Of a stretch of 64,000 nt of DNA, positions 11,533 through 28,095 are shown piece after piece. Location of the stretch: contig JAFTGH010000029.1 of assembly GCA_017458005.1 (NCBI GenBank), forward strand, positions 31,210-95,209, given 5' to 3'. Under the pieces are notes generated by a model. The model ran no database searches and had not been told where the DNA came from. It saw only the letters and a program-made list of their open reading frames with translations. The position numbers and the translations under genes were made by a program. Position 1 is the first letter of the stretch, and each line of letters begins with the position of its first letter. This stretch comes from Prevotella sp. (lineage in GTDB: Bacteria; Bacteroidota; Bacteroidia; Bacteroidales; Bacteroidaceae).

Positions 11533-11541
11533 CAATAACGA

Positions 11542-12471: not shown

Positions 12472-12486
12472 TTAAACTAATATTTA

Positions 12487-12543: not shown

Positions 12544-12638
12544 ATCTGGCACCATCAAAACATGAATGGTCACATCACTTTGGATGGTGCTAAGCGATGA
12601 GAAGGAACGGGGGAAGCGAGTGAAAGAAGCATCCGATT

Positions 12639-12750
12639 CGGTTGTCGACTCCAGTCGACACGGTTGCTGACTCCAGTCAACCGATTGTTTGACTCTAAGT
12701 CAACCGATCGTTCGACTCCATGTCAACCGATTGTTTGACTCCATGTCAAC
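12639..12750. repeat. Tandem array of five ~23-bp units with internal dyads
   Basis: Units start at 12639, 12661, 12682, 12705 and 12728 and are 21-23 bp. The consensus is cgattgtttgactccatg followed by tcaac. Within each unit TTGACT/AGTCAA-like halves form a short palindrome (GTCGACTCCAGTCGAC in the first), so the array could fold into serial hairpins or bind a dimeric protein repeatedly. The first two units are the most diverged. There are no unique spacers, so it is not a CRISPR. Confidence 0.8.
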
Positions 12751-12762
12751 CAGTAAAAAGAA

Positions 12763-12791
12763 ACCTCCGCAAAAGTGACTTCTGCGGAGGT
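12763..12791 (-). terminator. Rho-independent terminator of the OmpA-family gene
   Basis: ACCTCCGCA (12763-12771) pairs with TGCGGAGGT (12783-12791), followed on the minus strand by TTTCTTTTT. It lies 45 nt after the stop codon at 12837. Confidence 0.85.
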
Positions 12792-12836
12792 AATGTATGA
12801 TTTCCTTTATTTATCTCACTAAAAGAGATGGGATTA

Positions 12837-14102
12837 TCACTTCTTTACGAATACGACACGACGGTTCTGTGCACGTCCTGCGTCTGTTTTGTTGTCAGCA
12901 ACTGGCTCATGGGAGCCCTTACCTACCGCACGGAGATTGAATCCATCAACGCCTAAGCCTTCCAGAGCCTTGACGATAGCCTCAGCACGCTGCTGTGACA
13001 AAGGATCGTTAATCTTGTCAGAGCCTTGGTTGTCAGTATGTCCCTGTACCTCGAAGCGAGCCGTCGGGTTCTTCTTCATATAGTCGGCGACCTTCATGAT
13101 CTCAATCATCGACTCCTGTTTCAGCGTTGCCTTGCCAGTGTCGAAGAGAATATTGTTAGTGACAAACTTACCTGTCTCCTGGATTGCCTTCTCGACAGCG
13201 GAAACATCTTGTGCATTGCGATCGTAGAGCGCAACAGCACCCTTGGCAATCACCACATTGCGGATGAAGGTCAGGTTCTCGTAATCGAAAGGTACCTGGA
13301 AGCACATCCATGTGGGCTGGTTGACACGTGGTAGGTTCACTACGCGCTTGTCGTTGAAATAAACTTTCAAGGCACGCTTGTTAAACGACAGTGCCACATG
13401 GTTCCATCCCTTCTTGAAGGAGTAGTCAAACCCACCTTCCTTGTTTCCGTTGAACAAATAACTTTGTTCTTTGGTATCACAGACACCATGTTTCAGGACG
13501 AATGCTGTCAGGTCACCGCTATCATATCCCTCGCCTGGGAACTCAGAACGCTCTTTGGTAACGGCAAGAATCAACTTGATGTCGTTCAAGCCAACATTGT
13601 CCTTGCTATTCCAATAGTAGAAATCATATTCAATGGTGAATTCCTCTGGCAGATAGGCACCTTTCTCCTTGATGAGTGGCTGTATTTGAGCATTGTCGGT
13701 CAAGTTAATGGCTTTCACCCCACCCAGTGTCTTGGTCTCTACAGTACCTTGGAAAAGATCCCACTTAGAAGGGAATTCGCCAACAGTCTCACCATTGAAA
13801 TCGTCTTGGAAAAGGATCACCTCACCACGCTTGAAGTCACTCGATGTGACAGCACTTGGATTGTCATCGCCTACTTCTGCATCATCTCCTTTCGACTTCT
13901 TCCCATTCTTGCCCTTCACAGCGTCAGAGGCTTCGTCCTCGGCTTTGTCGAGTCCCTTCTCCATTGCTCGGTCGATGGCATTGTCGACTCTGCTTTCCAC
14001 CTTGTACTTGAGTCTGTCCTTTGCTCTGTTCAACCAGTTCTGCGCATTGGCAGAAGTTGCGATGGCAAAAGCCACAACCAGCATCAATAATAATCTTTTC
14101 AT
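12837..14102 (-). CDS. OmpA family outer-membrane/peptidoglycan-linking protein
   Basis: 421 residues from the second of two adjacent ATGs (14100-14102; the other is at 14105). A signal peptide MKRLLLMLVVAFAIATSANA is followed by a charged helical stretch (DRLKYKVESRVDNAIDRAME) and an acidic linker. A beta-rich middle (residues about 90-290, FQDDFNGETVGEFPSKWDLF) resembles a LamG/concanavalin-like fold. The C-terminal OmpA domain (NILFDTGKATLKQES, then GHTDNQGSDKIN and RAEAIVKALEGLG) binds peptidoglycan. It thus probably tethers envelope to wall. It has its own promoter (14148-14178) and terminator, so it is monocistronic. Confidence 0.88.
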   Translation of the reverse strand: MKRLLLMLVVAFAIATSANAQNWLNRAKDRLKYKVESRVDNAIDRAMEKGLDKAEDEASDAVKGKNGKKSKGDDAEVGDDNPSAVTSSDFKRGEVILFQDDFNGETVGEFPSKWDLFQGTVETKTLGGVKAINLTDNAQIQPLIKEKGAYLPEEFTIEYDFYYWNSKDNVGLNDIKLILAVTKERSEFPGEGYDSGDLTAFVLKHGVCDTKEQSYLFNGNKEGGFDYSFKKGWNHVALSFNKRALKVYFNDKRVVNLPRVNQPTWMCFQVPFDYENLTFIRNVVIAKGAVALYDRNAQDVSAVEKAIQETGKFVTNNILFDTGKATLKQESMIEIMKVADYMKKNPTARFEVQGHTDNQGSDKINDPLSQQRAEAIVKALEGLGVDGFNLRAVGKGSHEPVADNKTDAGRAQNRRVVFVKK

Positions 14103-14147
14103 CATAATAAAGTTATTTAATGTTATTTTAAGTTTTATTGTTGGGGA

Positions 14148-14178
14148 CAAAGATACAACTTATCCTTGATTTAAGCAA
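14148..14178 (-). promoter_or_regulatory. Bacteroidetes promoter for the OmpA-family gene
   Basis: On the minus strand TTG (14176-14178), a 20-nt spacer and TATCTTTG (14148-14155); about 45 nt to the ATG. Confidence 0.75.
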
Positions 14179-14282
14179 CATAATAAGTATTAAAATTGTT
14201 AAAAAACGAATGCTATATGCTAATAGTATCAGAAAAATGCTATACATTTGCATCGTTTTACGTACTAAAAATTGACTAAAAG

Positions 14283-14672
14283 ATGAAAAAGATACTCGTA
14301 ATGACCCTGATGCTGGTATGTGGCATGACAGCCGTTATGGCACAGAAGCCCGCACAGATCAAGTTTGACAAGACCGTTCATAACTTCGGCACTTTCTCTG
14401 AGAAGGAGCCTAAGGTGACTTGCACCTTCACCTATACGAACATTGGCGAACAGCCCCTGGTCATCAATCAGGCTGTGGCAAGTTGCGGATGCACTGTCCC
14501 TGAGTACACGAAGACTCCCGTGCAGCCAGGTGAGCAGGGCGAGATCAAGGTGACTTACAATGGTACTGGTAAGTTTCCTGGTCATTTCAAGAAGTCAATC
14601 ACTATCCGCACCAATGGTGCTGTCGAGATGACTCGCCTCTATATCGAGGGCGACATGACGGAGGCGAAGTAA
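14283..14672 (+). CDS. DUF1573 domain protein
   Basis: 129 residues with signal peptide MKKILVMTLMLVCGMTAVMA. The mature part is a single DUF1573 domain, an immunoglobulin-like fold common in Bacteroidetes: VHNFGTFSEKEPKVTCTFTY, VASCGCTVPEY with the family's conserved Cys-Gly-Cys, and PGEQGEIKVTYN. Periplasmic or surface location is expected and the function is unknown. A -7 element TACATTTG (14243-14250) precedes it by about 30 nt. The stop codon is the first base triplet of the GGTAAAAA repeat tract, and a bidirectional terminator follows. Confidence 0.88.
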   Translation: MKKILVMTLMLVCGMTAVMAQKPAQIKFDKTVHNFGTFSEKEPKVTCTFTYTNIGEQPLVINQAVASCGCTVPEYTKTPVQPGEQGEIKVTYNGTGKFPGHFKKSITIRTNGAVEMTRLYIEGDMTEAK

Positions 14673-14823
14673 AGGTAAAAAGGTAAGAAGGTAAAAAAGT
14701 AAAAAGGTAAAACATTACCCCAACATAAAAGGCTACTCATCATTAACTGATGCGCAGCCTTTTTACTTTTTTACCTTCTTACCTTTTTACCTTTTATTTT
14801 TTACCTTCTTACCTTTTTACCTT
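14671..14823. repeat. GGTAAAAA repeat tract forming a 37-bp perfect inverted repeat
   Basis: 14671-14707 and 14758-14794 are exact reverse complements over 37 bp, built from GGTAAAAA/GGTAAGAA units. The roughly 50-nt loop holds the terminator at 14729-14761. A further TTTTTACC block (14797-14823) reaches the stop codon of the converging DUF3078 gene. The tract begins within the stop codon of the DUF1573 gene. Confidence 0.85.
14729..14761. terminator. Bidirectional terminator between converging genes
   Basis: AAGGCT and TCATCA on the left pair with TGATG and AGCCTT on the right around a short loop, with two internal mismatches; A-rich sequence precedes it and a T-run follows it. Confidence 0.7.
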
Positions 14824-15990
14824 TTAAAAGGTGTAACTGAGTCCCAAGGAACTATACTCCATGAACTGCCAGTAGCCATTGTCGCTATCCCTCGTGGCGG
14901 CATCGTCGAAGCGAGGATAGAGGAACAGGTTTGCAGAGATATACTTGGTGACTTTGAACTCTATCTGGTTCTCCCACTCCACCAACGCACGTTTATAGGA
15001 GGTATAGGCATAGAGGCGGCTCTTCCACGACACCTGGTCGACAATCTGCCATTTGACATCGCCTGTGAACTGCGCACCAAACTCGTGCTTGGTATGCTTT
15101 CCCTCCATGCCATTCCGATCGAAGAGGGTGGTACGTCCCACATAGCGAAGGTTATAGGCGAGAGGCAGGAAGTTGAGCGTACCAGTCAGTTTCCCATCCA
15201 GCGCATTGAGTTTATACTCCATACCAATACCGATATTCAGGTCGAAGGGTGAGAAGAAATCGGAGTACACAAACTCGTCGTTCGCCTTCAAGCCCTTGGC
15301 AAACTGCGTATAGGCAAGCAACTGCAGACTGTAGTACCACTTATTGGATGCCTGAACGCCCAGTTTGCTGGTCAGACGCAGAATGTCGTTATTGGTCTTG
15401 AACTTATGGACGGAGTCGGTACGGGAGGTCTGGAAGCCCAGTTTCATCTCCAGTTTATTCTCGAAAGTGAACTTATCCTTGTCGTTATAGTTGAGTTCCA
15501 GTGTGACAGCACCCACGGCAGAGTAGTTGCTCTCGCCACCCTTATGCCAGTTGCTGGTCACATAGTTCTGCAAGAACTGCAGGAAGCCGTCGCCCTTGAA
15601 CTTCCAGAAGTTGGGCTTGGTGACCACGATACCCACAGGCAGTGCCTCTGGCTCATCAGGAGCGGGAAGCGTCTGGTCGACCAGTTCCACATCCTGCTTC
15701 ACCTCCTGGTTGACATCCTCACGGACGGAGCCCGTCTTCTGCAACTGGCTCTCCGTGTTCTGCACCAAGTCAGGACGGTTGAGGTAGATATGCATCAACG
15801 CCTCGTCGACGGCATCCGTCACCTCATCGCCCATCGTAGGGTTGAGCGACAACGACTTATTGGCACCAGAGTGATAGAACGTGGTAGGTGCAAACAAACG
15901 GTAATAACGACCATCGGGCTTTGTCTGGGCACTCGTCTCCTGCACTACCAAGAGGGCAAAGAGGGGCAATAGGAACTTTCTATATTTCAT
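14824..15990 (-). CDS. DUF3078 outer-membrane beta-barrel protein
   Basis: 388 residues. Signal peptide MKYRKFLLPLFALLVVQETSAQ, then a low-complexity segment to about residue 125, then the DUF3078 part: PNFWKFKGDGFLQFLQNYVT, NWHKGGESNYS, and alternating beta-strand patterns to the end. It terminates in an aromatic residue (GLSYTF), the usual signal for the outer-membrane barrel assembly machine. Function unknown. A -7 element TATCTTTG on the minus strand (16011-16018) lies about 20 nt upstream, back to back with the yidC promoter. It converges on the DUF1573 gene. Confidence 0.8.
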   Translation of the reverse strand: MKYRKFLLPLFALLVVQETSAQTKPDGRYYRLFAPTTFYHSGANKSLSLNPTMGDEVTDAVDEALMHIYLNRPDLVQNTESQLQKTGSVREDVNQEVKQDVELVDQTLPAPDEPEALPVGIVVTKPNFWKFKGDGFLQFLQNYVTSNWHKGGESNYSAVGAVTLELNYNDKDKFTFENKLEMKLGFQTSRTDSVHKFKTNNDILRLTSKLGVQASNKWYYSLQLLAYTQFAKGLKANDEFVYSDFFSPFDLNIGIGMEYKLNALDGKLTGTLNFLPLAYNLRYVGRTTLFDRNGMEGKHTKHEFGAQFTGDVKWQIVDQVSWKSRLYAYTSYKRALVEWENQIEFKVTKYISANLFLYPRFDDAATRDSDNGYWQFMEYSSLGLSYTF

Positions 15991-16113
15991 CTTCTTATCG
16001 ATTTTGTGTGCAAAGATACGAAATAATTCTTAATGTATCATGAATATTTCGATAATATTTTGTACCTTTGCACCTCGTATGCGAATTAGAAACTATATTA
16101 ATAAGGTATAATT

Positions 16114-17994
16114 ATGAATAGAGATACGATTATCGGTTTTGTCCTTATCGCCGTGGTACTGATAGGATTCAGTTGGTATAACAGTCCATCGCAGGAGGAC
16201 ATAGAAGCCGCACGACTGCAAGACTCCATTGCCGCAGTGGCACAGGATAACGCAAAGAAAGCCGCCCAGCAGGAGGCTGCCGCCCAACAGGCAAAGGCAG
16301 ACTCAGCGAAGGCTGACACCACAGCACTCTTCTTCAGTGCCCAGAAAGGGACTTCCCAGAAGGTCATCCTGAAGAACCAGAAACTGGAACTGACGCTCGA
16401 CACAAAGGGTGGCATCATCAAGAAAGCGAGAATACTCGATTACAAAGACCTTAACGACGAGAAAGACCTGACGCTCTTCGACGAGCAGGACCAGAACCTG
16501 AACTTTATGCTGGCTGGCAAGCAGGACAACATCGTCACTGCCGACCTCTATTTCACTCCCTCTGAGCAGACTGACTCCACCGTGACGATGACAGCGACAG
16601 CAGGGAATGGCGGTCAGATCATCTTGAGATACAACCTCGGCAAGGACTACCTGTTGGGCTTCTCCTTGCAGGCAAAAGGTCTTGCCAACACCTTCGCTCC
16701 CTCGTACAAGGAGATGGAGATAGAATGGAACGACCATTGTCGCCAGCATGAGAAAGGCTTCTCTTTTGAGAACCGCTATACCTCTATCTTCTATAAGGAG
16801 GCAAAGGGAAGCACCGACAACCTGACGGAGGCTTCCGACAAGAACGAGGTCATCGAGGAGGAACTCGACTGGGTAGCCTTCCGCAACCAGTTCTTCAGTG
16901 TCGCCCTCATCTCGAAGGAAAACTTCGCCAAGAACGCCGACCTGACGAGCACCCTCGAGGAGAAAGGCTCTGGCTATCTGAAGCAGTTTGGCGCCAAACT
17001 CAAGACCGCCTTCGATCCCACAGGACAGAAGCCCTCGGAGTTTGAGATGTATATTGGTCCCAACAACTTCCGACTGATTCAGGAGGTGGAGGAGCAAAGC
17101 ACCTTCGGCAAGGACCTCGACCTGGAGCAACTCGTCAACCTCGGCTGGTGGCTGTTCCGACTGATCAACCGCTGGTTTACCCTCTATGTCTTCGACTGGC
17201 TCGCCAGTTTCGGATTCAGCATGGGTATCGTCCTCATCCTCATCACCATCCTCTTGAAGGCTATCACCTTCCCCATGGTGAAGAAGAGTTATATGTCATC
17301 GGCGAAGATGCGTGTGCTCAAGCCCAAACTGGAGGAGGCCACCAAGCAGTATGACAAGCCAGAGGACCAGATGAAGAAACAACAGGAGATGATGTCGCTC
17401 TACTCCAAATATGGGGTGAGCCCGATGGGCGGCTGTCTGCCCATGCTTATCCAGATGCCTATCTGGATCGCCATGTTCTGGTTTGTGCCCAATGCCATCC
17501 AGTTGCGTGGTGAGTCCTTCCTGTGGATGGCAGACCTCAGCACCTACGACCCCATCGTGGAGTGGTCGACGAACATCTGGGGCATTGGCGACCACCTGTC
17601 GCTGACCTGTATCCTATTCTGTGCCGCCCAGTTGATCTACACATGGATCAGCATGCGCCAGCAGAAAGACCAGATGATTGGCGCGCAGGCTGAGCAGATG
17701 AAGGTGATGCAGTGGATGATGTACATCATGCCGCTGATGTTCTTCTTTATCTTCAACGACTACTCGTCAGGTCTGAACTTCTACTATTTCATCTCCCTGT
17801 TCTTCTCCGCAGCCATCATGTGGACCCTCCGCAAGACGACCAACGACGAGAAACTGCTTGCCATTCTGGAGGCGAAGTATCAGGAGAACAAGAACAACCC
17901 CAAGAAGCAGGGTGGTCTTGCCGCCCGTCTGGAGGCATTGCAGAAGCAGCAGGCTGAGTTGGAGCGTCAGCGTAAGAATGGATATAGGAAGTAG
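16114..17994 (+). CDS. yidC: Membrane protein insertase YidC
   Basis: 626 residues. Inserts inner-membrane proteins with or without SecYEG. An N-terminal transmembrane segment (IIGFVLIAVVLIGFSWY), a charged Gln/Ala-rich linker, and a large periplasmic beta-sandwich domain (about residues 85-340) precede the conserved Oxa1 core with four or five helices: FSMGIVLILITILLKAITFP, the SPMGGCLPMLIQMPIWIAMF hydrophilic-groove segment, and FNDYSSGLNFYYFISLFFSA. The basic tail (QRKNGYRK) fits ribosome contact. A -7 element TACCTTTG lies at 16063-16070. The stop codon is TAG after AAG and starts a GGAGTTAA repeat tract. Confidence 0.96.
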   Translation: MNRDTIIGFVLIAVVLIGFSWYNSPSQEDIEAARLQDSIAAVAQDNAKKAAQQEAAAQQAKADSAKADTTALFFSAQKGTSQKVILKNQKLELTLDTKGGIIKKARILDYKDLNDEKDLTLFDEQDQNLNFMLAGKQDNIVTADLYFTPSEQTDSTVTMTATAGNGGQIILRYNLGKDYLLGFSLQAKGLANTFAPSYKEMEIEWNDHCRQHEKGFSFENRYTSIFYKEAKGSTDNLTEASDKNEVIEEELDWVAFRNQFFSVALISKENFAKNADLTSTLEEKGSGYLKQFGAKLKTAFDPTGQKPSEFEMYIGPNNFRLIQEVEEQSTFGKDLDLEQLVNLGWWLFRLINRWFTLYVFDWLASFGFSMGIVLILITILLKAITFPMVKKSYMSSAKMRVLKPKLEEATKQYDKPEDQMKKQQEMMSLYSKYGVSPMGGCLPMLIQMPIWIAMFWFVPNAIQLRGESFLWMADLSTYDPIVEWSTNIWGIGDHLSLTCILFCAAQLIYTWISMRQQKDQMIGAQAEQMKVMQWMMYIMPLMFFFIFNDYSSGLNFYYFISLFFSAAIMWTLRKTTNDEKLLAILEAKYQENKNNPKKQGGLAARLEALQKQQAELERQRKNGYRK

Positions 17995-18028
17995 GAGTTA
18001 AGGAGTTAAGATTATAAGAAGTTAAGAT
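17992..18028 (+). repeat. GGAGTTAA repeat tract at the yidC stop codon
   Basis: Begins with the yidC stop (AAG-TAG) and continues ggagttaaggagttaag, then a degenerate unit agaagttaag just before the ATGATG of the next gene. It fills the whole intergenic spacer. Confidence 0.7.
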
Positions 18029-19495
18029 ATGATGAAGATAGGATTCGATAACGACAAATACCTCAAGATACAGTCGGAGCACATCAAGGAGCGTATCGCA
18101 CAGTTTGACGGAAAACTGTATCTGGAACTGGGTGGCAAACTATTCGACGACCACCATGCGAGCCGTGTACTGCCTGGTTTCAAGCCAGACTCCAAACTCC
18201 GCATGTTCAGTAAGATCAGTGACAGCATCGAGATTGTCATTGTCATCAGTGCGGAGGATATCGAGAAGAACAAGGTACGTGCCGACCTCGGCATCACCTA
18301 CGACGAGGATGTGCTGCGCCTCCGTGATGAGTTCATGAACAGAGGCTTTATGGTAGGCTCTGTCGTCATCACCCACTATAACGGACAGCATGCCGCCGAC
18401 CTGTTCCGCCATCGCTTGGAGCGACTGGGCATCAAGTCGTATGTACACTATCTGATAGACGGCTATCCCCATAGTGTCAAACTGATTGCCTCGGATGAGG
18501 GATTCGGCAAGAACGACTACGTGGAGACCTCTCGTGAGTTGGTCATCGTGACTGCCCCAGGTCCTGGCTCTGGCAAGATGGCTGTCTGTCTCTCCCAACT
18601 GTATAACGAGAACAAGCGTGGCATCCGTGCCGGCTATGCCAAGTTCGAGACCTTCCCCGTGTGGAACCTCCCACTGAAGCATCCTGTCAATATCGCCTAT
18701 GAGGCTGCTACTGCCGACCTCAACGATGTGAACATGATCGACCCGTTCCATCTGGAGGCATACGGTAGTACCGCCATCAACTACAACCGTGACATTGAGA
18801 TATTCCCTGTGCTCAACGCCCTCTTTGAGGGTATCTACGGGGAGAACCCCTATAAGTCGCCTACGGACATGGGTGTCAACATGGTGGGCTTCTGTATCAG
18901 TGATGACGAGGTGTGCTGCAACGCCAGTCGTGACGAGATCATCCGTCGCTACTACGACGCCACCAACAAACTCGCTGATGGCGCCGATAACGAGAATGAG
19001 GTCAACAAGATCCTGATGCTCTTCAACCAGGCGAAGATAACGACGGCATATCGCCGTGTCACCGTTGCCGCTGCCGCCAAGCAGGAACTGTCGGGACTCA
19101 CCGCCGCCGCCATCGAACTGCATGACGGAACACTGATAACGGCAAAGACATCTCCCCTACTCGGCTGCTGCGCGGCACTCCTGCTGAATGCCACCAAGCA
19201 TCTCGCAGGCATCGAGCATGAGGCGAAACTCATCCCGCAGAGCATGATAGAGCCTATTCAGAAAACCAAGATAGAATACCTGGGCGGTAAGAACCCCCGC
19301 CTGCATACCGATGAGGTTCTGGTGGCACTCAGTGTGCTGTCGAAGGACGACGAGCAATGCCGTCGCGCCTTGGAGCAGTTGCCTAACCTGCGCGACTGTC
19401 AGGTACACTCTACCGTCATGCTCTCTGAGGTAGACCGCAAGATATTCAAGAAACTCGGTTGCGGACTGACCTGCGATCCTGTTAGGAAAAAGTAA
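18029..19495 (+). CDS. DUF1846 (UPF0371) family protein
   Basis: 488 residues, the family's usual length (about 490-505). Recognised from MKIGFDNDKYLKIQSEHIKE, KLYLELGGKLFDDHHASRVL, VIVISAEDIEKNKVRADLGI and APGPGSGKMAVCLSQLYNEN. The last resembles a nucleotide-binding glycine loop. Structures of the family show a Rossmann-like domain; the biochemical role is not settled. It is cytoplasmic, with no signal peptide. It lies 34 nt after yidC and 87 nt before the S9 peptidase, both spacers made of short tandem repeats, so the run is probably one operon. The C-terminal RKK is encoded at the repeat edge. Confidence 0.9.
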   Translation: MMKIGFDNDKYLKIQSEHIKERIAQFDGKLYLELGGKLFDDHHASRVLPGFKPDSKLRMFSKISDSIEIVIVISAEDIEKNKVRADLGITYDEDVLRLRDEFMNRGFMVGSVVITHYNGQHAADLFRHRLERLGIKSYVHYLIDGYPHSVKLIASDEGFGKNDYVETSRELVIVTAPGPGSGKMAVCLSQLYNENKRGIRAGYAKFETFPVWNLPLKHPVNIAYEAATADLNDVNMIDPFHLEAYGSTAINYNRDIEIFPVLNALFEGIYGENPYKSPTDMGVNMVGFCISDDEVCCNASRDEIIRRYYDATNKLADGADNENEVNKILMLFNQAKITTAYRRVTVAAAAKQELSGLTAAAIELHDGTLITAKTSPLLGCCAALLLNATKHLAGIEHEAKLIPQSMIEPIQKTKIEYLGGKNPRLHTDEVLVALSVLSKDDEQCRRALEQLPNLRDCQVHSTVMLSEVDRKIFKKLGCGLTCDPVRKK

Positions 19496-19571
19496 AAAGG
19501 TAAAAAAGTAAAAAAGTAAAAAGGTAAAAAAGTAAAAAGGTAAAAAGGTAAAAAGGTAAAAAAAGTAAAAG
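19493..19571 (+). repeat. GGTAAAAA repeat tract at the DUF1846 stop codon
   Basis: Starts at the stop (AAG-TAA) and runs as about ten gtaaaaag/ggtaaaaa units to 11 nt before the S9 peptidase ATG. It contains many TAA triplets in all frames. Confidence 0.85.
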
Positions 19572-19582
19572 AAAACTGAGAA

Positions 19583-21811
19583 ATGAAGAATACAATGACA
19601 AACAGTATGGTAAAAGGTTTGGTAAATTGGGTTTTACCTTTTTACCTCTTTACCTTTTTACCTTTAAATATCAATGCAGACGAAGTGATAGGAAAGAGTA
19701 ACATCAAACTGGAGAGCCGCATGATGACTCCTGAGGCACTATGGGCAATGGGGCGCATCGGTACGGTGGAGGTTTCACCTGACGGCAAACAGATAGCCTA
19801 TCAGGTAGGCTACTATAGCGTGAAGGCGAACAAGAGCCGACAGGTCATCTGCGTCATGGATGCGGATGGCAAGAACAACCGCCAGTTATCTGTCAGCAGC
19901 AAGAGCGAGACTGACCCTACCTGGTTGGATGCCAACACGATCGCCTACCTCTCAGGTGGTGAAATATGGGCGATGAAGAGCGACGGCACGGAACGCCGCC
20001 AACTCAGTAAGACGGACGGCAAGGTGGAGGGCTTTAAGTTCTCACCCGACCGCACGAAGGTCATCCTGATTGAGAGCATTCCTTTCCATGAGATTATCAA
20101 GGAGAACCCAGATGACCTGCCCAAGGCTACTGGTCGTCGTGTCACCGACTTGATGTACCGCCATTGGGACCACTATGTGGAGAGCATCCAGCATCCGTTC
20201 CTCTGTTCCGTAAGCGGATATGCTATAGCCACAGAACAAACGGACATCCTCGATGGGGAGCCCTACGAGTGCCCGATGGAGCCGTTTGGCGGTATTGAGC
20301 AACTTGCCTGGAGCCCTGACTCCAAGACCATCGCCTATACTTGTCGTAAGAAGACAGGATTGGAGTATTCCATCTCCACCGACTCAGACATCTATCTATA
20401 TAATATAGGTACGCGCAAAACGACAAACCTCTGTAAGCCCGCTGATTACAAGGCTCCTGTCAATGATCCTACCCGTACATTGAAGATACAACCTGTCAAT
20501 GCGCCAGAGAATCTGAAGAACAACGTGGGCTATGACCAAAACCCGCAGTTCTCGCCCGATGGCAAGTATATCGCTTGGCAGTCGATGGAGCGTGACGGCT
20601 ATGAGGCTGACCTCAACCGCCTGTGCATCTATGAGATGGCAACGGGCACGAAGTGCTATGTTGACTGGAAGAGTGATGTCGAGGCTTTCTGCTGGGGCTA
20701 TGGCAAGGAGCATCTTCTCTACTTCCTCAGCGTATGGCACGGCTGTAACAATATGTACGCCGTCACCAAAGACCTGAAGACAATACAACTCACGGAGTCA
20801 TGGGGTGACTGGACCAGTCTGCAACTTGCCAATGACGGTAAGCATATCATCGCCACCCGTCAGAGTCTCTCCGCACCTACAGATATCTATAGGGTAACAC
20901 CTATGGCAGTACAGGACCAGCCTTTGGACGGCACACCAGGCGTTCGTCATATCATAGAGAGCCTTATTGAGCAAATCTCCTTCGAGAACAAGCATATCCT
21001 CGACCAACTGACCTTCGGTAAAGTACAGCAGCGTTGGGTGGATACCAGTGATGGTAAGAAGATGCTGGTATGGATCATGCTGCCCGCCAACTATGAGGAA
21101 GGCAAGAAATACCCCACCCTGCTCTTCTGCGAGGGTGGTCCCCAGAGTCCTGTCAGCCAGTTCTGGAGTTACCGCTGGAACTTCCAGATGATGGCGGCAA
21201 ACGGTTATGTGGTCATCGCTCCTAACCGTCATGGACTGCCTGGTTTCGGACAGGAATGGAAAGAGGAGATCAGTGGCGACTGGTCGGGACAGTGTATGAG
21301 TGACTATCTCGCCGCCATCGATGACGCTGCCGAGAACCTGCCTTTTGTGGACAAAGACCGCCTTGGTGCCGTTGGTGCCTCGTTTGGTGGTTTCAGTGTC
21401 TACTATCTCGCTGGCATCCACGAGAAGCGTTTCAAGGCATTCATTGCCCATGACGGCGCTTTCAATCTTGCCGCCATGTACTTAGAGACGGAGGAGAACT
21501 GGTTCTCCAACTGGGAGTATGACGAGGCATACTGGCACCGTCCACAGATGCCGAACGCCAAGAAGACCTACCATGACTCTCCCCATAAGATGGTGGAGAA
21601 ATGGGACACGCCTATCCTCTGCATCCATGGGGAGAAGGACTACCGCATCAACTACACCCAGGGCATGGCAGCATTTAACGCTGCACGTATGAAAGGAATT
21701 CCTGCGGAGTTGCTTATCTTCCCAGACGAGAACCACTGGGTATTGAAGCCCCAGAACGGAATCCTGTGGCAGCGCACCTTCTTCGGATGGCTCGACCGCT
21801 GGCTGAAGTAA
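19583..21811 (+). CDS. S9 family prolyl oligopeptidase, exported
   Basis: 742 residues. Cleaves peptides, probably X-Pro or X-Ala, in the periplasm. The N-terminal half is a WD40-like propeller (VSPDGKQIAYQVGYYSVKA, SPDSKTIAYTCRKK, SPDGKYIAWQSMER). The C-terminal alpha/beta-hydrolase has the nucleophile Ser near residue 599 in GASFGGFSVYY, Asp near 685 in HGEKDYRINYT and His near 716 in DENHWVLKP. The signal-peptide core LPFYLFTFLPL is encoded by antisense GGTAAAAA repeats (TTTTTACC units around 19630-19665). It is flanked by the same repeats on both sides. Close relatives are DPP-like dipeptidyl peptidases; the exact specificity is uncertain. Confidence 0.92.
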   Translation: MKNTMTNSMVKGLVNWVLPFYLFTFLPLNINADEVIGKSNIKLESRMMTPEALWAMGRIGTVEVSPDGKQIAYQVGYYSVKANKSRQVICVMDADGKNNRQLSVSSKSETDPTWLDANTIAYLSGGEIWAMKSDGTERRQLSKTDGKVEGFKFSPDRTKVILIESIPFHEIIKENPDDLPKATGRRVTDLMYRHWDHYVESIQHPFLCSVSGYAIATEQTDILDGEPYECPMEPFGGIEQLAWSPDSKTIAYTCRKKTGLEYSISTDSDIYLYNIGTRKTTNLCKPADYKAPVNDPTRTLKIQPVNAPENLKNNVGYDQNPQFSPDGKYIAWQSMERDGYEADLNRLCIYEMATGTKCYVDWKSDVEAFCWGYGKEHLLYFLSVWHGCNNMYAVTKDLKTIQLTESWGDWTSLQLANDGKHIIATRQSLSAPTDIYRVTPMAVQDQPLDGTPGVRHIIESLIEQISFENKHILDQLTFGKVQQRWVDTSDGKKMLVWIMLPANYEEGKKYPTLLFCEGGPQSPVSQFWSYRWNFQMMAANGYVVIAPNRHGLPGFGQEWKEEISGDWSGQCMSDYLAAIDDAAENLPFVDKDRLGAVGASFGGFSVYYLAGIHEKRFKAFIAHDGAFNLAAMYLETEENWFSNWEYDEAYWHRPQMPNAKKTYHDSPHKMVEKWDTPILCIHGEKDYRINYTQGMAAFNAARMKGIPAELLIFPDENHWVLKPQNGILWQRTFFGWLDRWLK
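19611..19665 (+). repeat. GGTAAAA/TTTTTACC repeats coding a signal peptide
   Basis: Within codons 10-28 of the S9 peptidase: ggtaaaaggt units in one orientation and then three TTTTTACC units in the other. The second part codes the hydrophobic FYLFTFLPL core. Confidence 0.75.
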
Positions 21812-21874
21812 AGGTAAAAAGGTAAAAAGGTAAAAAAGTAAAAAGGTAAAAAAGTAAAAAAGTAAAAAGGTAAA
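21809..21874 (+). repeat. GGTAAAAA repeat tract at the S9 peptidase stop codon
   Basis: Begins with AAG-TAA, the end of the peptidase gene, and repeats ggtaaaaa/agtaaaaa units to about 13 nt before the MFS transporter start. Its first 18 bases are identical to the start of the tract behind the DUF1573 gene. Confidence 0.85.
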
Positions 21875-21886
21875 AGAATAAAAGAT

Positions 21887-23506
21887 ATGACACAAGTTAT
21901 TCAAAAAACGCTGCGCGACAGTGCGGCAATGCGATGGACTGCATTACTGCTGCTTGCCCTCGCCATGTTCTGTTCATACATTTTCATGGACATCCTCTCG
22001 CCTATCAAGGACCTGATGCAGGAGACCCGTGGTTGGGACTCCACCGCCTTCGGCACCATGCAGGGCTCTGAGGTGTTCCTGAACGTATTCGTCTTCTTCC
22101 TCATCTTCGCAGGTATCATCCTCGACAAGATGGGCGTGCGCTTCACCGCCGTACTCTCCGCCGCTGTGATGCTGGTGGGTGCCTGTGTGAAGTGGTATGC
22201 TGTCAGTGAAGGTTTCATCGGCAGTGGACTGGAGACATGGTTTACCAACAACCTCAACTACATCCCTGTCTTTGACGAGTTAGGGGTATCACCGTTCTAT
22301 CAGGGCATGCCCGCCTCCGCTAAGTTTGCCGCCTGTGGCTTTATGATCTTCGGCTGTGGCTGTGAGATGGCTGGTATCACCGTTAGCCGTGGTATCGTGA
22401 AATGGTTCAAGGGACGTGAGATGGCACTTGCCATGGGTTCTGAGATGGCACTGGCACGTCTGGGTGTCGCCACCTGTATGATCTTCTCACCCTTCTTCGC
22501 TAAGTTAGGCGGTGAGGTCAGTGTCAGCCGCAGTGTTGCCTTCGGTGTTGTCCTGATGTGTATCGCCCTGATCATGACGATTGTCTATTTCTTCATGGAT
22601 AAGAAACTCGACAGCCAGACTGGTGAGGCAGAGGAGAAGGACGATCCCTTCAAGATCAGTGATATCGGTAAGATCCTTAGCGACAGCGGTTTCTGGCTTG
22701 TGGCTCTGTTGTGCGTACTCTACTACTCCGCCATCTTCCCCTTCCAGAAGTATGCTGTGAACATGTTGCAGTGTAACCTGACACTGACAGAACCAAGCAC
22801 AGACTCTTTCTGGGCAAGTCCCTCTGTCACGATAGTACAGTATGTCATCATGCTGTTGGTGGCTGCCGCAGGCTTTGCCTCCAACTTCCAGAAGAAGGCG
22901 AACATGAAATACACGCTGTTAGGTATCTCCATCCTTGCCCTTATCACCTATTGCTATATGGGTTTTATGCGCCAGACGGCAGAGAGTATCTTCGCTGTAT
23001 TCCCCCTGCTTGCCGTGCTCATCACCCCTATCTTGGGTAACTATCTCGACAACCACGGCAAGGCGGTGTCTATGTTGATATTGGGTTCCTTGCTGCTCAT
23101 CGGCTGCCACCTGACCTTCGCCTTCATCCTGCCTTTGTTCAAGGGCAGTGCTGTCGGTGGAGTCATCGTAGCCTACGCCACGATCCTGGTACTGGGTGCC
23201 TCCTTCTCTTTGGTACCTGCCTCGCTATGGCCCAGCGTACCCAAACTCGTGGATGCCAAGGTGATTGGCTCAGCCTATGCCCTGATCTTCTGGATTCAGA
23301 ACATCGGCTTGTGGCTGTTCCCACTGCTGATCGGTAAGGTCCTTGACGCCACCAACCCCGAGGGAGCCAGTGCCACCGAGTTGGACTATACCGCTCCCCT
23401 TGTGATGCTCGCCTGCCTAGGTGTCGCCGCCCTCATCCTCGGCTTCATTCTGAAGGCAGTCGACAAGAAGAAGGGTATCGGACTTGAGGAGCCGAATATC
23501 AAATAA
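21887..23506 (+). CDS. Major facilitator superfamily transporter
   Basis: 539 residues with about 12 predicted transmembrane helices. Helix 1 is WTALLLLALAMFCSYIFMDI. An MFS signature-like loop follows helix 2 (IILDKMGVRF, D-x-x-G-x-R). A cytoplasmic loop near residue 245 (KKLDSQTGEAEEKDD) divides the two halves. The substrate cannot be told from the sequence; similar Bacteroidetes proteins are annotated simply as MFS transporters. As last gene of the yidC-DUF1846-peptidase run, it could take up products of the S9 peptidase, but that is a guess from position. It converges on the exo/endonuclease gene with a 2-nt gap. Confidence 0.85.
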   Translation: MTQVIQKTLRDSAAMRWTALLLLALAMFCSYIFMDILSPIKDLMQETRGWDSTAFGTMQGSEVFLNVFVFFLIFAGIILDKMGVRFTAVLSAAVMLVGACVKWYAVSEGFIGSGLETWFTNNLNYIPVFDELGVSPFYQGMPASAKFAACGFMIFGCGCEMAGITVSRGIVKWFKGREMALAMGSEMALARLGVATCMIFSPFFAKLGGEVSVSRSVAFGVVLMCIALIMTIVYFFMDKKLDSQTGEAEEKDDPFKISDIGKILSDSGFWLVALLCVLYYSAIFPFQKYAVNMLQCNLTLTEPSTDSFWASPSVTIVQYVIMLLVAAAGFASNFQKKANMKYTLLGISILALITYCYMGFMRQTAESIFAVFPLLAVLITPILGNYLDNHGKAVSMLILGSLLLIGCHLTFAFILPLFKGSAVGGVIVAYATILVLGASFSLVPASLWPSVPKLVDAKVIGSAYALIFWIQNIGLWLFPLLIGKVLDATNPEGASATELDYTAPLVMLACLGVAALILGFILKAVDKKKGIGLEEPNIK

Positions 23507-23508
23507 GA

Positions 23509-24426
23509 CTAGAACTGAAAGTGCACGACAAGGGGAAGATGATCGCTGAACCCTTGTTGATAGCGCATACCGTTATAAGTGCGGAGGGGCTTGAACCCTC
23601 CGTATTTTTTATCCTCCTCTAAAAGGAAAGGGCTGTCGTTGATGTATACCTGCTGGACACGGTCAAGCAGCAGGGGACACACAAAGACATGGTCAATACT
23701 CCCCCACTCGCCTTGATAGCGGTAGGTCGCCTTGGCACCGTGAGAGCCTCTCGCATGGCAGGTGACGTTCTGCAAACCATGAGCGGACAGGTATCGCAAG
23801 GCAGGAGCCTCAGCGTCATCGTTGAAGTCACCTGCCACGATGACCTTTGCACTGGAAGGCAGTTGGCGGATGGATTGCACCAGACGGTCAGCAACCAACT
23901 GGCGGTTGGGACGAGTCGCCTTCTCTCCTCCATAGCGACTGGGGGCATGGACGACGAAGACATGCAGGGTATCGCCTGTGATATACTCCCCCTGCACATA
24001 GAGGATGTCACGGGTGGGGCGCATCCCCTCCAAAGGGGTGATACCTAACGTCTCATAACAGATAGGACGAAACATAAAAGGCTGATAGAGCAAGGCGACA
24101 TCAATGCCACGCTCATCAGGCGACTCCGTCATCAGATACTGATAGCCAGCATGGCGCAACAGGGATCTCCTCGTCAGGTCGATGAGGACGGAGTCGTTCT
24201 CGACCTCCACCAAGGCGACAAGGTCGGGCACCCCTTCCTCCTGACAAGACAGGATCTCCTGTCCGATATTGTTCACCTTACGCCAATAGCGTGAGGGAGT
24301 CCAATGACGCACTGAAGCAGGCAACCATTCGGTGTCCTGCTTCAGGGTATCGTGGCGACAATCAAAGAGATTCTCGCAATTCAGTTCTACTAAGGTGAAT
24401 AATGACGCTAACAGGAGATTTAGCAT
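23509..24426 (-). CDS. Endonuclease/exonuclease/phosphatase family protein
   Basis: 305 residues from the ATG at 24424-24426 (MLNLLLASLFTLVELNCENL); a longer frame upstream lies inside the transporter gene. The superfamily's catalytic motifs appear in order: LVALVEVEND (Glu, metal), VIVAGDFNDD (Asp/Asn), GSIDHVFV and SDHLPLVVHF (His). A hydrophobic start suggests export or membrane anchoring, as in Bacteroidetes secreted members. The substrate could be nucleic acid, a phospholipid headgroup or another phosphodiester. It overlaps the end of the transporter gene by 7 nt and ends the four-gene minus-strand operon. Confidence 0.85.
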   Translation of the reverse strand: MLNLLLASLFTLVELNCENLFDCRHDTLKQDTEWLPASVRHWTPSRYWRKVNNIGQEILSCQEEGVPDLVALVEVENDSVLIDLTRRSLLRHAGYQYLMTESPDERGIDVALLYQPFMFRPICYETLGITPLEGMRPTRDILYVQGEYITGDTLHVFVVHAPSRYGGEKATRPNRQLVADRLVQSIRQLPSSAKVIVAGDFNDDAEAPALRYLSAHGLQNVTCHARGSHGAKATYRYQGEWGSIDHVFVCPLLLDRVQQVYINDSPFLLEEDKKYGGFKPLRTYNGMRYQQGFSDHLPLVVHFQF

Positions 24427-25949
24427 ACCTTCTCCAGACGCTTCATCATGATAAACATGAAGATGGCGGCAATGAGGCAGACGGCGAGGAACACACTCCA
24501 GCAGAGCCAGAGGGGAACGGCACCCCACAACAGACCACCTACTACCACGAGTTGGTTACCAATTGCCGTGGCAACGAACCAGCCACCCATCATCATACCC
24601 TTGTACTTGGGAGGAGCCACCTTCGACACGAAGGAGATACCCATAGGCGACAGCAGCAACTCACCAAAGGTCAGAATGAGGTATACAGAGATCAACAGAT
24701 TAGGTGTCACGTCAGCCACATGCATGGCAACAGGATTGCCGTCGGCACCTATCTCCGTCTGTGGCATCGGCAGTCCTAAAGAGCCAAACGCCATCAAGGC
24801 ATAGGCGATAGCAGCGACGATCATACCGTAGGCTATCTTACGAGGAGCAGAAGGCTCTTTTCCCTTTGCCGCCAAAGCGCCAAAGATTGCCATAGATACA
24901 GGTGTCAAAGCCACCACATAGAACGGATTGAACTGCTGGAAGATAGGCGCGGAGATAGCGACCGTTGTGGCTTGTCCGTACTGCCAGCAGAGGTATGCCA
25001 CAGCAAGAACGACAACGGCTACCGAGATCAGGCGTGCTTTGGTCGTCTTCGACTGGAAGACAGAGAACAAGGCATAGACAATGAAGATGACGGCAACCAG
25101 GTTCCACACATCGAAGCACATCGACTGCAGACCAGAGGCGGAGTTGGCGGTGAACTCATCTGCGAAATACGTCAGCGAGAGTCCGTTCTGATGGAATGCC
25201 ATCCAGAAGAAGATGACAACGGCGAAGACGAGACACAGGGCGACAATGCGCTGTTTGGTCTCTTCCCTGCTCAGTTCCTCTACAGCCGTCTCAGCAGCCT
25301 GAGCCGTTTTCTTCGTACCTCCCTCCGTATGACGGAAGGTAGAGCGGAAGATATAATAGATAGCGATAGACAGAATCAATGACGCACAGGCAACCGCAAA
25401 CGAGAAGTGGTAGGCGTCATTGCTGGAGTAGCCCAGAGAGGTCTCCGCATACTCCTTGATCTTGATGGCGGCAGTAGGAGCAAACAAGGCACCGATGTTG
25501 ATCGCCATGTAGAAGATGGAGAAACCTGCGTCACGCTTGTCCTTATACTGCGGATCGTTATAGAGGTCGCCCACCATCACCTGCAGGTTGCCTTTGAAGA
25601 GTCCTGTGCCAAATCCGATCAGCAACAAAGCGGCAAGCATCACTACCAGGGCGAAGGTGTCGCCTCCCAGAGGGACACTCAGCAACAGGTAGCCTGCGAA
25701 CATGATGATGATACCCGTGGTGACCATACGCCCAAAGCCGAACTTGTCGGCAAGCATGCCGCCAAACAGCGGGAAGAAATACACAAACATGAGGAAAGCA
25801 CTGTAGATGGTACCAGCCAAGGCGGGTGACAATCCGTAGTTTGCCCTCAGAAACAATGCAAACACAGCAAGCATCGTGTAATAGCCGAAGCGCTCTCCCG
25901 TATTGGCGAGAGCCAACGCAAATAATCCTTTCGGTTGTCCTTCAAACAT
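24420..25949 (-). CDS. Proton-dependent oligopeptide (POT/PTR) transporter
   Basis: 509 residues with about 14 predicted transmembrane helices. The family motif E-R-F-x-Y-Y is present at the start (NTGERFGYYTMLAVF), then GGMLADKFGFGRMV and the PTR2 signature region FSIFYMAINIGALFAPT. It imports di- and tripeptides with protons across the inner membrane. It follows the porin-like gene by 5 nt in an operon with a LysM protein, so it may act in peptide or wall-peptide scavenging. The helix-rich middle insertion (EEVQ/EELSREETKQR region) is typical of Bacteroidetes members. Confidence 0.92.
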   Translation of the reverse strand: MFEGQPKGLFALALANTGERFGYYTMLAVFALFLRANYGLSPALAGTIYSAFLMFVYFFPLFGGMLADKFGFGRMVTTGIIIMFAGYLLLSVPLGGDTFALVVMLAALLLIGFGTGLFKGNLQVMVGDLYNDPQYKDKRDAGFSIFYMAINIGALFAPTAAIKIKEYAETSLGYSSNDAYHFSFAVACASLILSIAIYYIFRSTFRHTEGGTKKTAQAAETAVEELSREETKQRIVALCLVFAVVIFFWMAFHQNGLSLTYFADEFTANSASGLQSMCFDVWNLVAVIFIVYALFSVFQSKTTKARLISVAVVVLAVAYLCWQYGQATTVAISAPIFQQFNPFYVVALTPVSMAIFGALAAKGKEPSAPRKIAYGMIVAAIAYALMAFGSLGLPMPQTEIGADGNPVAMHVADVTPNLLISVYLILTFGELLLSPMGISFVSKVAPPKYKGMMMGGWFVATAIGNQLVVVGGLLWGAVPLWLCWSVFLAVCLIAAIFMFIMMKRLEKVC

Positions 25950-25954
25950 AGTAT

Positions 25955-26707
25955 TTATTTTATTTTATCGTTTTTAGTCTTCACTATATCAAAGAGGTAG
26001 GTCGCCTTGATGACAATCTGTCCGAAATTGGACTTAGCGAAATAGTCACTTTTCGTGTTGCCATAGATATTCCCTAACCCATAGTAATAACGTCCCTCCA
26101 ATAGGAAGTGTCCAACTTTCGGCATCGAGAACTCAATACCAGCACCCCCGGTAATACCATACTCGAACTTCTTCTCGACAGGCATCGACTCCTGTGCTAC
26201 GATAGTGGAACTACGTGTCTCGGTTGGCTCCTTCCCCTCTACAAGATTCGTACTCGTCGACTCACTCATAAAGACACCGAACTGCGGACCTATCTGGAAG
26301 AAGCCTTGTAGTCCACGGCGCTCCCTACCCCAACCCAGACGGGCTAACAAAGGAATTTGCAGGTAGGTCATCTTACGTTCATAATGCAGGGCATTGGCAT
26401 CACCCTCATAATACAGGGGTTGACTTTGCAGACCCTCTATCTTCTCCCTCCATCCCACTTGTGCGATATTCACTTCCGCCACGATGGCACAGATGCTCTT
26501 GAAATATTTCTCACAAGTATAGCGGAAGGTGATACCAGCCGTCATGCCACCTAACATGCTCTGAGGCACATCAGGAGTGAAGCCTACATTACTTAATACA
26601 TAGCCACCATTCACACCTACGGCAAAGTCGGTGCGATATTCACCCACCTGTGCCTTCGAGATGAAAGGTAAAAAGGCAAAAAGGTAAAAAAGTAATAGTT
26701 TCCTCAT
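25955..26707 (-). CDS. Outer-membrane beta-barrel (porin-like) protein
   Basis: 250 residues. Signal peptide MRKLLLFYLFAFLPFISKAQ, whose core is encoded by TTTTTACC-type repeats (26664-26695). The mature part is alternating beta strands with aromatic girdles (GEYRTDFAVGVNGGYVLSNV, FRYTCEKYFKSICAIVAEVN, FLLEGRYYYGLGNIYG), resembling the OmpW/PorT-like 'outer membrane beta-barrel' group of Bacteroidetes. No substrate can be assigned. It lies 2 nt after the LysM gene and 5 nt before the peptide transporter, so all are one transcript. Confidence 0.8.
   Translation of the reverse strand: MRKLLLFYLFAFLPFISKAQVGEYRTDFAVGVNGGYVLSNVGFTPDVPQSMLGGMTAGITFRYTCEKYFKSICAIVAEVNIAQVGWREKIEGLQSQPLYYEGDANALHYERKMTYLQIPLLARLGWGRERRGLQGFFQIGPQFGVFMSESTSTNLVEGKEPTETRSSTIVAQESMPVEKKFEYGITGGAGIEFSMPKVGHFLLEGRYYYGLGNIYGNTKSDYFAKSNFGQIVIKATYLFDIVKTKNDKIK
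26664..26695. repeat. GGTAAAAA repeats inside a signal-peptide coding region
   Basis: aaaggtaaaaaggcaaaaag and two more units on the plus strand. On the coding (minus) strand they are read as TTTTTACC, TTTTTGCC and TTTTTACC, giving FYLFAFLPF. Confidence 0.8.
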
Positions 26708-26709
26708 CG

Positions 26710-28095
26710 TTAAAAATAGATCGTTTCTGTATGACGTGCTGGCAGGTAATGGACGAAGAGCATACTCTTATTCTTCAAGCCACCATTGCCGATTCGCTCG
26801 AAGTGAAGAGGTGTCTGGATGGGGGTATATCCAACCATTCCTGCTCCACCCGTAAAGTCCTTTCCATACATGTGGAGCCCTTTCAACAGGAAGAGGGCAT
26901 GGTCATAACCTGTGATGGCGAAACGTGGTAGCGCATTCATCATGTCAGCATGGAAGTTCCATCGGTACTTGAGCATGATACGCTCCGTCTGCGGAGACTG
27001 CAGGTTGGTATAAAAAGGTGCGGGGATATAGGTGTCGAACTTATAGAAGTTCTCCAGTTGATGACGTGTATAGAGCATCCAGTCCGTATAGCCGAAGACA
27101 CTGATCTGCAACTCGGGATGCGACAGGCGCAAGCCATTCAGTTTTGCCATGGCGGCATTGAGTTCCTTGGAACGTCCTGTGTTCAGAATCACCATATTAC
27201 GCTTGGTGGGACTGAAAGACTTGAAGAACGCTGCCTCACTGGAGTTCAGGTTAGTGATCTTATACTCGATACTCTTCGCTTCCAGTCTGCGACGAAGCCC
27301 GAAGGTGAAGATTCCCTTCTGACTGGTGGTATCATTGCAATCGATAAACACGGGATGGGTGTCACTGAACCGATCCATGAAATGCCCGATAATCGTCTCG
27401 TTCTGTTCTGTCTGTGGCTGATAGACCTGCATCAGATGGCGATTGACCAGTATCTCATGACTATTGATAGAGAATGGAATAAAAACACGGATATCATTCT
27501 CCGTAGCGAAATCAGCGAGTGGTTTCACCATCTTGGAGTAAAGCGGACCAATGATCACATCACACTCAGCGGCTTTCGGATCGTCAAGGAATGTCTGGAT
27601 ATCAGTGTCCTCTGCCACATTCCATGCACGGATGTCAGTAGAGATACCATTGGCACGCAGACTGTCGCATGCCATCAGGAAACCCCGATAATACTCCAGC
27701 ATGCGCTTGCCGTCACCATTCACTTTATGAAGTGGCAACATGACACCAACACGAATCTCACGCTGACGGACATCAGTCTTCTCCCTCTTGGCTGGGGCTG
27801 TCGGCTGTTGGCTATTGGCTGTCGGCTGATCAACTTCAGGTGCCTGGGGCTGATTGGCTGACCAAGGAATATTGATAAAGTCGCCCTTCTTCAACTCGTA
27901 CCCCGGATTGTTCATCTCCGGGTTGGCTGCGATGAGTTCCTGAATCGTAATCCCATACATTCGTGAGATGCCGAAGATAGTCTCTTTGCGCTTCACTTGG
28001 TGCTTCTCACGAAACTGAGGCTGTTGCGCAAAGGCTGTCTCCACGGTAAAAGCCAAACAGGCTAGCATCAGAAAATATCTAATAATAGACTTCAT
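26710..28095 (-). CDS. LysM-domain protein with periplasmic-binding (type 1) fold
   Basis: 461 residues. Signal peptide to about residue 23 (MKSIIRYFLMLACLAFTVET). A LysM domain (about 30-80: KRKETIFGISRMYGITIQEL, ELKKGDFINIP) binds peptidoglycan. A low-complexity QPTANSQQPTAPAK linker follows, and then a PBP type 1 fold (REIRVGVMLPLHKVNGDGKR, DVIIGPLYSKMVKPLADFA, NMVILNTGRSKEL) like LivJ or the LpoA-type proteins. It could sense or bind a ligand at the wall, or activate peptidoglycan synthesis as LpoA does; both are inference. It heads the operon and has a -7 element at 28124-28131. Confidence 0.85.
   Translation of the reverse strand: MKSIIRYFLMLACLAFTVETAFAQQPQFREKHQVKRKETIFGISRMYGITIQELIAANPEMNNPGYELKKGDFINIPWSANQPQAPEVDQPTANSQQPTAPAKREKTDVRQREIRVGVMLPLHKVNGDGKRMLEYYRGFLMACDSLRANGISTDIRAWNVAEDTDIQTFLDDPKAAECDVIIGPLYSKMVKPLADFATENDIRVFIPFSINSHEILVNRHLMQVYQPQTEQNETIIGHFMDRFSDTHPVFIDCNDTTSQKGIFTFGLRRRLEAKSIEYKITNLNSSEAAFFKSFSPTKRNMVILNTGRSKELNAAMAKLNGLRLSHPELQISVFGYTDWMLYTRHQLENFYKFDTYIPAPFYTNLQSPQTERIMLKYRWNFHADMMNALPRFAITGYDHALFLLKGLHMYGKDFTGGAGMVGYTPIQTPLHFERIGNGGLKNKSMLFVHYLPARHTETIYF
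27790..27830. repeat. GGCTGTTGGCTA-type repeat coding a linker
   Basis: Six degenerate 7-bp units (ggctgtcggctgttggctat, then ggctgtcggctg) inside the LysM gene. The coding strand gives the QPTANSQQPTAP linker between LysM and binding domains. Confidence 0.7.

Follow-up and report, generated by a model that had tools for sequence, protein, structure and literature searches.

How does the start of a secreted-protein gene come to be written in the same short repeat that lies between the genes around it? The question is raised by a stretch of 64,000 nucleotides from a Prevotella genome (the window), for which a first-pass annotation noted that a repeat found between genes recurs in antisense orientation within the starts of two exported proteins, an S9 peptidase and an outer-membrane beta-barrel protein. 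That observation is confirmed: in both genes the antisense repeat lies in an N-terminal signal peptide, and the window holds 20 copies of the unit GGTAAAAA, where shuffles lead one to expect 1.14. We propose that this dispersed octanucleotide repeat builds the start regions of many secreted-protein genes and that, in this lineage, it most likely replaced the start regions that those genes formerly had (we put the probability at about 0.77).

Signal peptides encoded by the repeat

The S9 family (prolyl oligopeptidase) peptidase gene is the clearest host of the repeat in the window (19583..21811, plus strand; Pfam PF00326, E 1.1e-52). Its open reading frame (ORF) starts at 19583 with a repeat-type signal peptide, MKNTMTNSMVKGLVNWVLPFYLFTFLPLNINA (19583..19678, plus strand), probably cleaved after A. 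The hydrophobic (h-region) core of this peptide, LPFYLFTFLPL, is encoded at 19634..19666 on the plus strand by four antisense units, TTACCTTTTTACCTCTTTACCTTTTTACCTTTA, much as the first-pass annotation had read these codons. The intergenic partners of the core are two sense arrays on the plus strand. One has about 10 units (19487..19570) and occupies most of the gap between the stop codon of ORF 18029-19495 and the S9 start codon; the other has about 9 units (21810..21883) and runs from the S9 stop codon to just short of the ATG of ORF 21887-23506. The beta-barrel gene (OMP_b-brl_2, locus P0002; 25955..26707, minus strand; Pfam PF13568, E 2.2e-32) does carry a four-unit core, LLFYLFAFLPF, at 26664..26695 on the minus strand, but it is the weaker of the two examples, as its signal peptide is shared by descent with a sister genome.

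Antisense arrays encode the core LPFYLFTFLPL in 24 genes of the source genome (G000), a Prevotella metagenome-assembled genome (MAG) of 3.05 Mb in 66 contigs that is 92% complete. When the S9 N-terminus (39 residues) was searched against this genome, 30 places came up, of which 21 are retained, the others being non-coding, out of frame, antisense or doubtful; P0002 and two genes from the array survey described below (L022 and L025) complete the set. In a Pfam scan of 20 of these genes (L129, L131, L022 and L025 were left out), 18 matched, all to different families: S9, OMP, POTRA/BamA, OmpH, BatD, S41, apiosidase, GH97, S46, GH106, Metallophos, FKBP, GH5, OEP, DUF1573, SusD, PorZ and M16. L121 and L132 had no Pfam match. 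Judged by eye from the translations, the peptides have the anatomy of Sec signal peptides, being N-terminal with a basic n-region, a hydrophobic core and an AxA-type site or lipobox, and on this anatomy the proteins are predicted to be exported. Most of the peptides end in A, with Q, D, N, G or T as the next residue, three (L122, L127 and L025) end in a Cys lipobox, and L133 (PLLSH) has no clear site.

The codons support the repeat as the source of the core. Over 222 residue-matched codons in 22 of these genes, 206 coincide with the codon of the repeat, whereas the codon usage of 13 ORFs in the window predicts 52; TTA makes up 4% of Leu codons in those ORFs. The idea that the element can serve as a ready-made signal-peptide core is supported. 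It had also been said that the repeat gives hydrophobic codons in the right frame, which is correct as to hydrophobicity but too weak as to frame: with a unit length of 8, not divisible by 3, TTTTTACC(n) gives one and the same cycle, FLPFYLFT, whichever of the three frames is read. On the opposite strand, every frame of GGTAAAAA(n) runs into a stop.

In G000 the repeat, hereafter family A, has the 8-bp unit RGTAAAAA arranged in tandem arrays. The three-unit pattern RGTAAAAARGTAAAAARGTAAAA has 108 matches (58+50) in this genome and its reversed control has none. Among the matches listed we surveyed 71 arrays of at least three units. The 48 arrays outside signal peptides are closely tied to gene ends, with 44 beginning -9 to +10 nt from the stop codon of a same-strand ORF, one at -35 and three without such a stop, and 38 are followed by a same-strand ATG within 42 nt. 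The survey called 23 arrays in signal peptides, of which 21 were kept (21 of the 71 arrays are thus in coding sequence), L137 and L146:1991 being dropped as spurious antisense ORFs. The A-rich strand is therefore the sense strand between genes, and the T-rich strand the sense strand in signal peptides. At least two sense units lie within 100 nt upstream in 16 of 22 G000 genes of a layout table of 82 rows; the doubtful rows L009, L021, L137 and L146 are kept in that table and omitted from this count and from the arm-matching test, and the table's count of 33 A-A rows includes the doubtful L021, while L130 and P0002 were missed by its filter.

Could slippage lengthen or shorten the core, as the first-pass annotation suggested? 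One such step was found, between the G000 gene L022 and its orthologue L164 in the sister genome: both carry the core, their downstream DNA is 95% identical, and the G000 copy is longer by exactly 24 bp, that is, three units in frame. Since 8 is not a multiple of 3, slippage by a single unit shifts the frame and three units (24 bp, 8 residues) keep it. The length of signal-peptide arrays looks constrained, with four units in 18 of 21.

These features together form a start module that would serve both as a Sec signal peptide and as the spacer from stop to start codon. Typically it begins with a sense array of GGTAAAAA, A-rich and with stops in every frame, extending from the stop codon of the preceding gene towards the start codon. 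The start codon and a basic n-region follow, then about four antisense units, in which the T-rich strand, open in all frames, supplies the core LPFYLFTFLPL, and finally an ordinary AxA-type or lipoprotein site. How such modules arise and move is a matter of inference.

Comparison with a sister genome

The sister genome G299 shares synteny with the window, their DNA being 90-94% identical, and has three matches to the family-A pattern. All 22 core genes compared have orthologues in it, and 21 of these have an unrelated, ordinary signal peptide with no repeat units in the stretch available (at L121 the sister locus is truncated by a contig end), in spite of mature parts that are 87-98% identical (77% for L129). 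For the S9 peptidase, the orthologue L031 has a mature part 98% identical and carries MKRIILALAVISMLPTVVNA in place of the repeat-type signal peptide. Among S9 orthologues with named records, 78 of 80 have an ordinary signal peptide with no TTTTTACC, and the type seen in the window is found only in L054 and L072. The comparison with orthologues lacking the repeat, proposed in the first-pass annotation, therefore gives different residues within the genus in both data sets. The pattern named there as contrary evidence, the same residues written in unrelated codons, was not seen within the genus, where genes with these residues use the codons of the repeat.

The difference between the two genomes is bounded. 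Downstream of the core, identity is 79.7% over the first 30 nt, which still contain the cleavage region, then 93.3% at 30-60 nt and 92-94% beyond (21 loci). Upstream, it is 76.5% in the last 15 nt before the preceding stop codon, 90.8% at 15-30 nt and 91-92% beyond (17 of the 21 loci, L118, L121, L132 and L133 being skipped). At the GH97 gene (L117), the two genomes agree up to the stop codon and again right after the signal peptide. By eye, the signal peptides of G299 often resemble those of more distant relatives, and this likeness suggests that the ordinary type is older and that the repeat type was gained in the lineage of G000. The direction of change at each locus we likewise infer.

Two larger differences between the genomes were also observed in the window. 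About 3 kb of G000 (11197-14181) shrinks to about 93 bp in G299, and at 21811-21877, where G000 has only the 21810-21883 array, G299 carries about 7.1 kb. The window holds other tandem repeats as well, at 12647-12751 and 41074-41147, with units of 23 bp and 21 bp.

Distribution and related repeat families

Of the 299 genomes of the genus searched, 122 contain the family-A three-unit pattern (the range being 0 to 113 matches per genome), and the reversed control pattern is rare. It was found in none of 390 genomes from other genera of the same order (the search covered 393 genomes, the remaining three being G000 and two members of the genus without the pattern). The same pattern turns up among IMG/VR viral contigs, in 25 stretches (L213-L237), a possible sign of carriage by prophages or plasmids.

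Four related genomes (G301, G241, G032 and G302) show the same layout with other repeat units; families B and C are unrelated 7-bp repeats from related species, and their frame behaviour is that of the octamer. In G241, G301, G302 and G303 the orthologues of the core genes form a mosaic of signal-peptide types. BamA, for example, has the octamer module in G000, G303 and G241 and an ordinary signal peptide in G299, while in G301 and G302 it has a different repeat, with TAGTGAATAGTGAA-like units ahead of the gene and a signal peptide that contains LFTIHC. The third family has TAAATGATAAATGA units and the signal peptide SFIICHLSFS; its exact three-unit pattern is found in 28 of the 299 genomes of the genus and is absent from G000. 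Leader and core belong to the same family in 47 of the 51 layout-table rows with at least two upstream units (at least one of the rows, L021, is doubtful). With pairs entered by hand, leader and core match in 10 of 11 cases in G301, which has three families (permutation P 0.001), and in 8 of 9 in G241, which alone is not significant (P 0.22).

Families B and C also carry hairpins. A perfect hairpin with a stem of at least 4 precedes 23 of 40 array starts, against about 2.3 expected from shuffles; these hairpins are GC, vary in sequence and adjoin the array. No terminal hairpin was found in the 71 arrays of family A. At the signal-peptide end of families B and C the hairpin encodes the cleavage site (SPARAQ and variants). 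Across 25 distinct 26-mers (L337 was placed in register by hand and L333 read from sequence; one duplicate and three B/C rows that lacked the motif were omitted), standard pairs make up 94.4% of cells. Both sides are changed in 14 cells, against a shuffled mean of 3.8 and with none of 500 shuffles as high, a contrast that relatedness among the rows may inflate. The covariation score is 0.341, against 0.159 for the shuffles and 0.05-0.12 when the structure is slid; pairs changed on both sides number 3, which is not above two of the slid structures (3 and 4).

A gene of 260 aa has a near-identical family-B start region in two species, G241 (L313) and G301 (L315). Given that the S9 region outside the module is only about 60-81% DNA-identical, this likeness suggests recent transfer. 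In G241 (contig C53), the BatD orthologue (L280, L309) has a signal peptide, FLIFSFSHFLIF, made of TTTTCTCA units, with GAGAAAATGAG before the gene, possibly a fourth family. An R/K-W-(M/V) motif at the boundary of the n- and h-regions was noticed by eye in many signal peptides of families A, B and C.

A wider reading may be offered tentatively, as one that could well fail: the genus may have several families of self-spreading start modules, each an inverted pair of A-rich arrays, some with terminal hairpins, taking over the region from the stop codon to the mature N-terminus. With unit lengths of 8, 7 and 7, none a multiple of three, one strand would always be a stop-bearing spacer and the other always a hydrophobic core. 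Such modules would couple translation in operons and would move as units between genes and between species, recasting a proteome's export signals over no greater a divergence than that between two sister species.

Predicted RNA structure

The two arrays of a module are complementary, and the mRNA is therefore predicted to be able to fold into a stem whose loop holds the start codon. Over a stretch of 210 nt around the start codon (-100 to +110), the mean folding z-score is -2.54 for 22 G000 genes and -0.37 for 21 sister orthologues (P 1e-5), and the predicted pairs between leader and coding sequence number 30.4 in the former and 19.0 in the latter (P 6e-4). The most likely use of such a stem would be to couple initiation to translation of the upstream gene. 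No known RNA family was found at the gathering threshold within positions 14000-28000 of the window.

Weighing the alternatives

Several observations count against the proposal that the repeat replaced the former start regions. The 22 genes compared were picked for carrying the core in G000, on which the figure of 21 of 22 is conditional, and G000 is a MAG, as are most of the named relatives. The signal peptide of P0002 is common by descent to both genomes, that of G299, MRKLLLFCLFALLPSITKAQ, having equal length and only point changes. Two genes (L118 and L123) have first residues, MKK and MRK, like those of the sister, and replacement may be partial. In the layout table, 6 of the 22 genes lack two units upstream. 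Moreover, a repeat-type core is seen for 12 of the 22 genes in one or more of the relatives G241, G301, G302 and G303 (20 had an orthologue in any of these four), and ancestral presence followed by loss in G299, or transfer, could therefore also account for them. Leader and signal-peptide arrays are no better matched within a locus than across loci (permutation P 0.28, 0.54 and 0.74 for families A, B and C), and templating by the nearby leader array was rejected as the origin of the signal-peptide array, the only long match between arms being one of 37 bp at a convergent site described below. As to RNA structure, absolute folding energy does not differ significantly (-47.8 in G000, -50.8 in the sister; P 0.36), nor is pairing of the start region any higher (unpaired 0.55 and 0.53; P 0.7); sequestration of the start codon was rejected on these two grounds.

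Start modules might instead have come in from other species of Prevotella through homologous recombination at orthologous genes, so that local replacement is only apparent, and we regard this as a real possibility, if short of probable. Between species, the modules are indeed more alike than the genes around them: the n-region of the S9 module is 87-90% and its core 100% DNA-identical to G301 and G241, with flanks of the same genes at 61-81%; the GH97 module shares 59 of 66 bases between G000 and G302, with flanks at 57-85%; and BamA of G303 and G241 has an n-region at 92% and a core at 96%, with flanks at 54-83%. The raised divergence of the last 15 nt before the upstream stop codon (17 loci) also speaks for import. 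However, recombination tracts from a donor at 75-80% identity should extend further, and divergence is back at background beyond 15 nt upstream and 30 nt downstream; import also leaves the first origin of each module unexplained. Another view, that the repeats are mobile elements resembling repetitive extragenic palindromes (REP) or miniature inverted-repeat transposable elements, moved by a Y1 (TnpA-REP) or other transposase, appears unlikely to us. The hairpins beside the arrays of families B and C fit it, and inverted pairs resemble bacterial interspersed mosaic elements (BIMEs), but family A has no terminal hairpin and the 92% complete G000 has no Y1_Tnp match. Y1_Tnp is present in 13 of 21 array-rich genomes and in 8 of 20 without the family-A pattern, which is no clear association, and a simple insertion leaves the old signal peptide in place.

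Plain microsatellite slippage from short seeds, retained where harmless, does seem to have acted at the convergent site. There a sense RGTAAAAA array (14671..14712, plus strand) abuts the stop codon of ORF 14283-14672, and its inverted partner (14758..14826, minus strand) follows, likewise in sense, the stop codon of ORF 14824-15990 on the minus strand, the two arms having a 37-bp exact inverted match. G299 has two short arms with an identical spacer at this site (14671-14826), and the G000 arms are longer by 23 bp and 53 bp, respectively, as expected for growth in place; the 24-bp difference between L022 and L164 points the same way. As a full account it is nonetheless improbable, because slippage alone cannot make 21 new signal peptides with new n-regions, the arrays are strictly strand-oriented, and MutS1 is over the cut-off in 21 of 21 array-rich genomes. 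Loss of mismatch repair as such is not supported, with mutS1 over the cut-off in 40 of 41 genomes and the exception, G009, lacking the family-A pattern. T-rich codons are hydrophobic, and ordinary selection on signal peptides might in principle have converged on the repeat; the excess of repeat codons, which includes the rarely used TTA, and the unrelated residues of orthologues without the repeat make this very improbable. We attach as little credence to an artefact of assembly or binning, for which the 66 contigs of the MAG might speak, since the cores are in frame and the pattern recurs in 122 genomes of the genus, where the reversed control is rare, including the single-contig genome G045 (33 matches).

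If replacement by the repeat is the correct reading, it describes a way in which noncoding repeats turn into a standard protein part that is reused many times per genome, and it explains why the property of forming a hydrophobic core is frame-proof. The origin of signal peptides would become directly testable with sister species, and LPFYLFTFLPL, LFTIHCSLFT and SFIICHLSF would be markers for repeat-derived export signals in Prevotella. Leaders and signal peptides might also be inherited together as RNA-structured units.

Comparison with known systems

Tandem units at the 5' end of surface-protein genes are familiar as phase-variable simple sequence repeats. As in those, a change of one unit in the Prevotella arrays would shift the frame; unlike them, the array length is four in 18 of 21 cases. 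Between species, one 24-bp, in-frame difference was seen.

The heptameric GGGAATC repeats of Xanthomonas and Nostoc are described, in the available text of PMC4692102, as genome-wide, strand-biased tandem arrays of 7-nt units between aligned ORFs, near stop or start codons and with four units preferred. The Prevotella arrays, to judge from that text, are likewise strand-biased between aligned ORFs (of 48 arrays, 44 begin near a stop codon and 38 precede a same-strand ATG). GGGAATC repeats are G-rich quadruplex formers under-represented in coding regions, and no mention of signal peptides was found in the available text of that paper (PMC4692102). In contrast, RGTAAAAA is A-rich, 21 of its 71 arrays are in coding sequence, and its antisense strand codes for signal peptides. 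The systems of REP/BIME and REP-associated tyrosine transposases, as far as the portions of PMC3733652, PMC6006769 and PMC3116915 available describe them, share with our repeats the dispersed, inverted intergenic pairs, and the end hairpins of families B and C; such hairpins stand at 23 of 40 array starts in those two families, with covariation at the signal-peptide end, and at none of the 71 arrays of family A. Unlike these systems, G000 has no Y1 transposase match, the arms are tandem octamers or heptamers, and one arm is coding.

In the "TM-first" model, as presented in the available part of PMC7005711, thymine-rich intergenic DNA yields transmembrane segments as new yeast ORFs emerge. There as here, noncoding T-rich DNA turns into a hydrophobic peptide segment, but in Prevotella a single repeat supplies the signal peptides of dozens of bacterial genes that already existed. 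Searches of the open-access literature found no report of repeats that provide the signal peptides of unrelated genes in bacteria, the closest cases seen being the GGGAATC heptamers of Xanthomonas and the thymine-rich origin of membrane segments in yeast. Taken by themselves, the intergenic arrays would belong to an already known type of repeat; what we regard as new is the use of one repeat, in several families, as the export signal of many unrelated genes.

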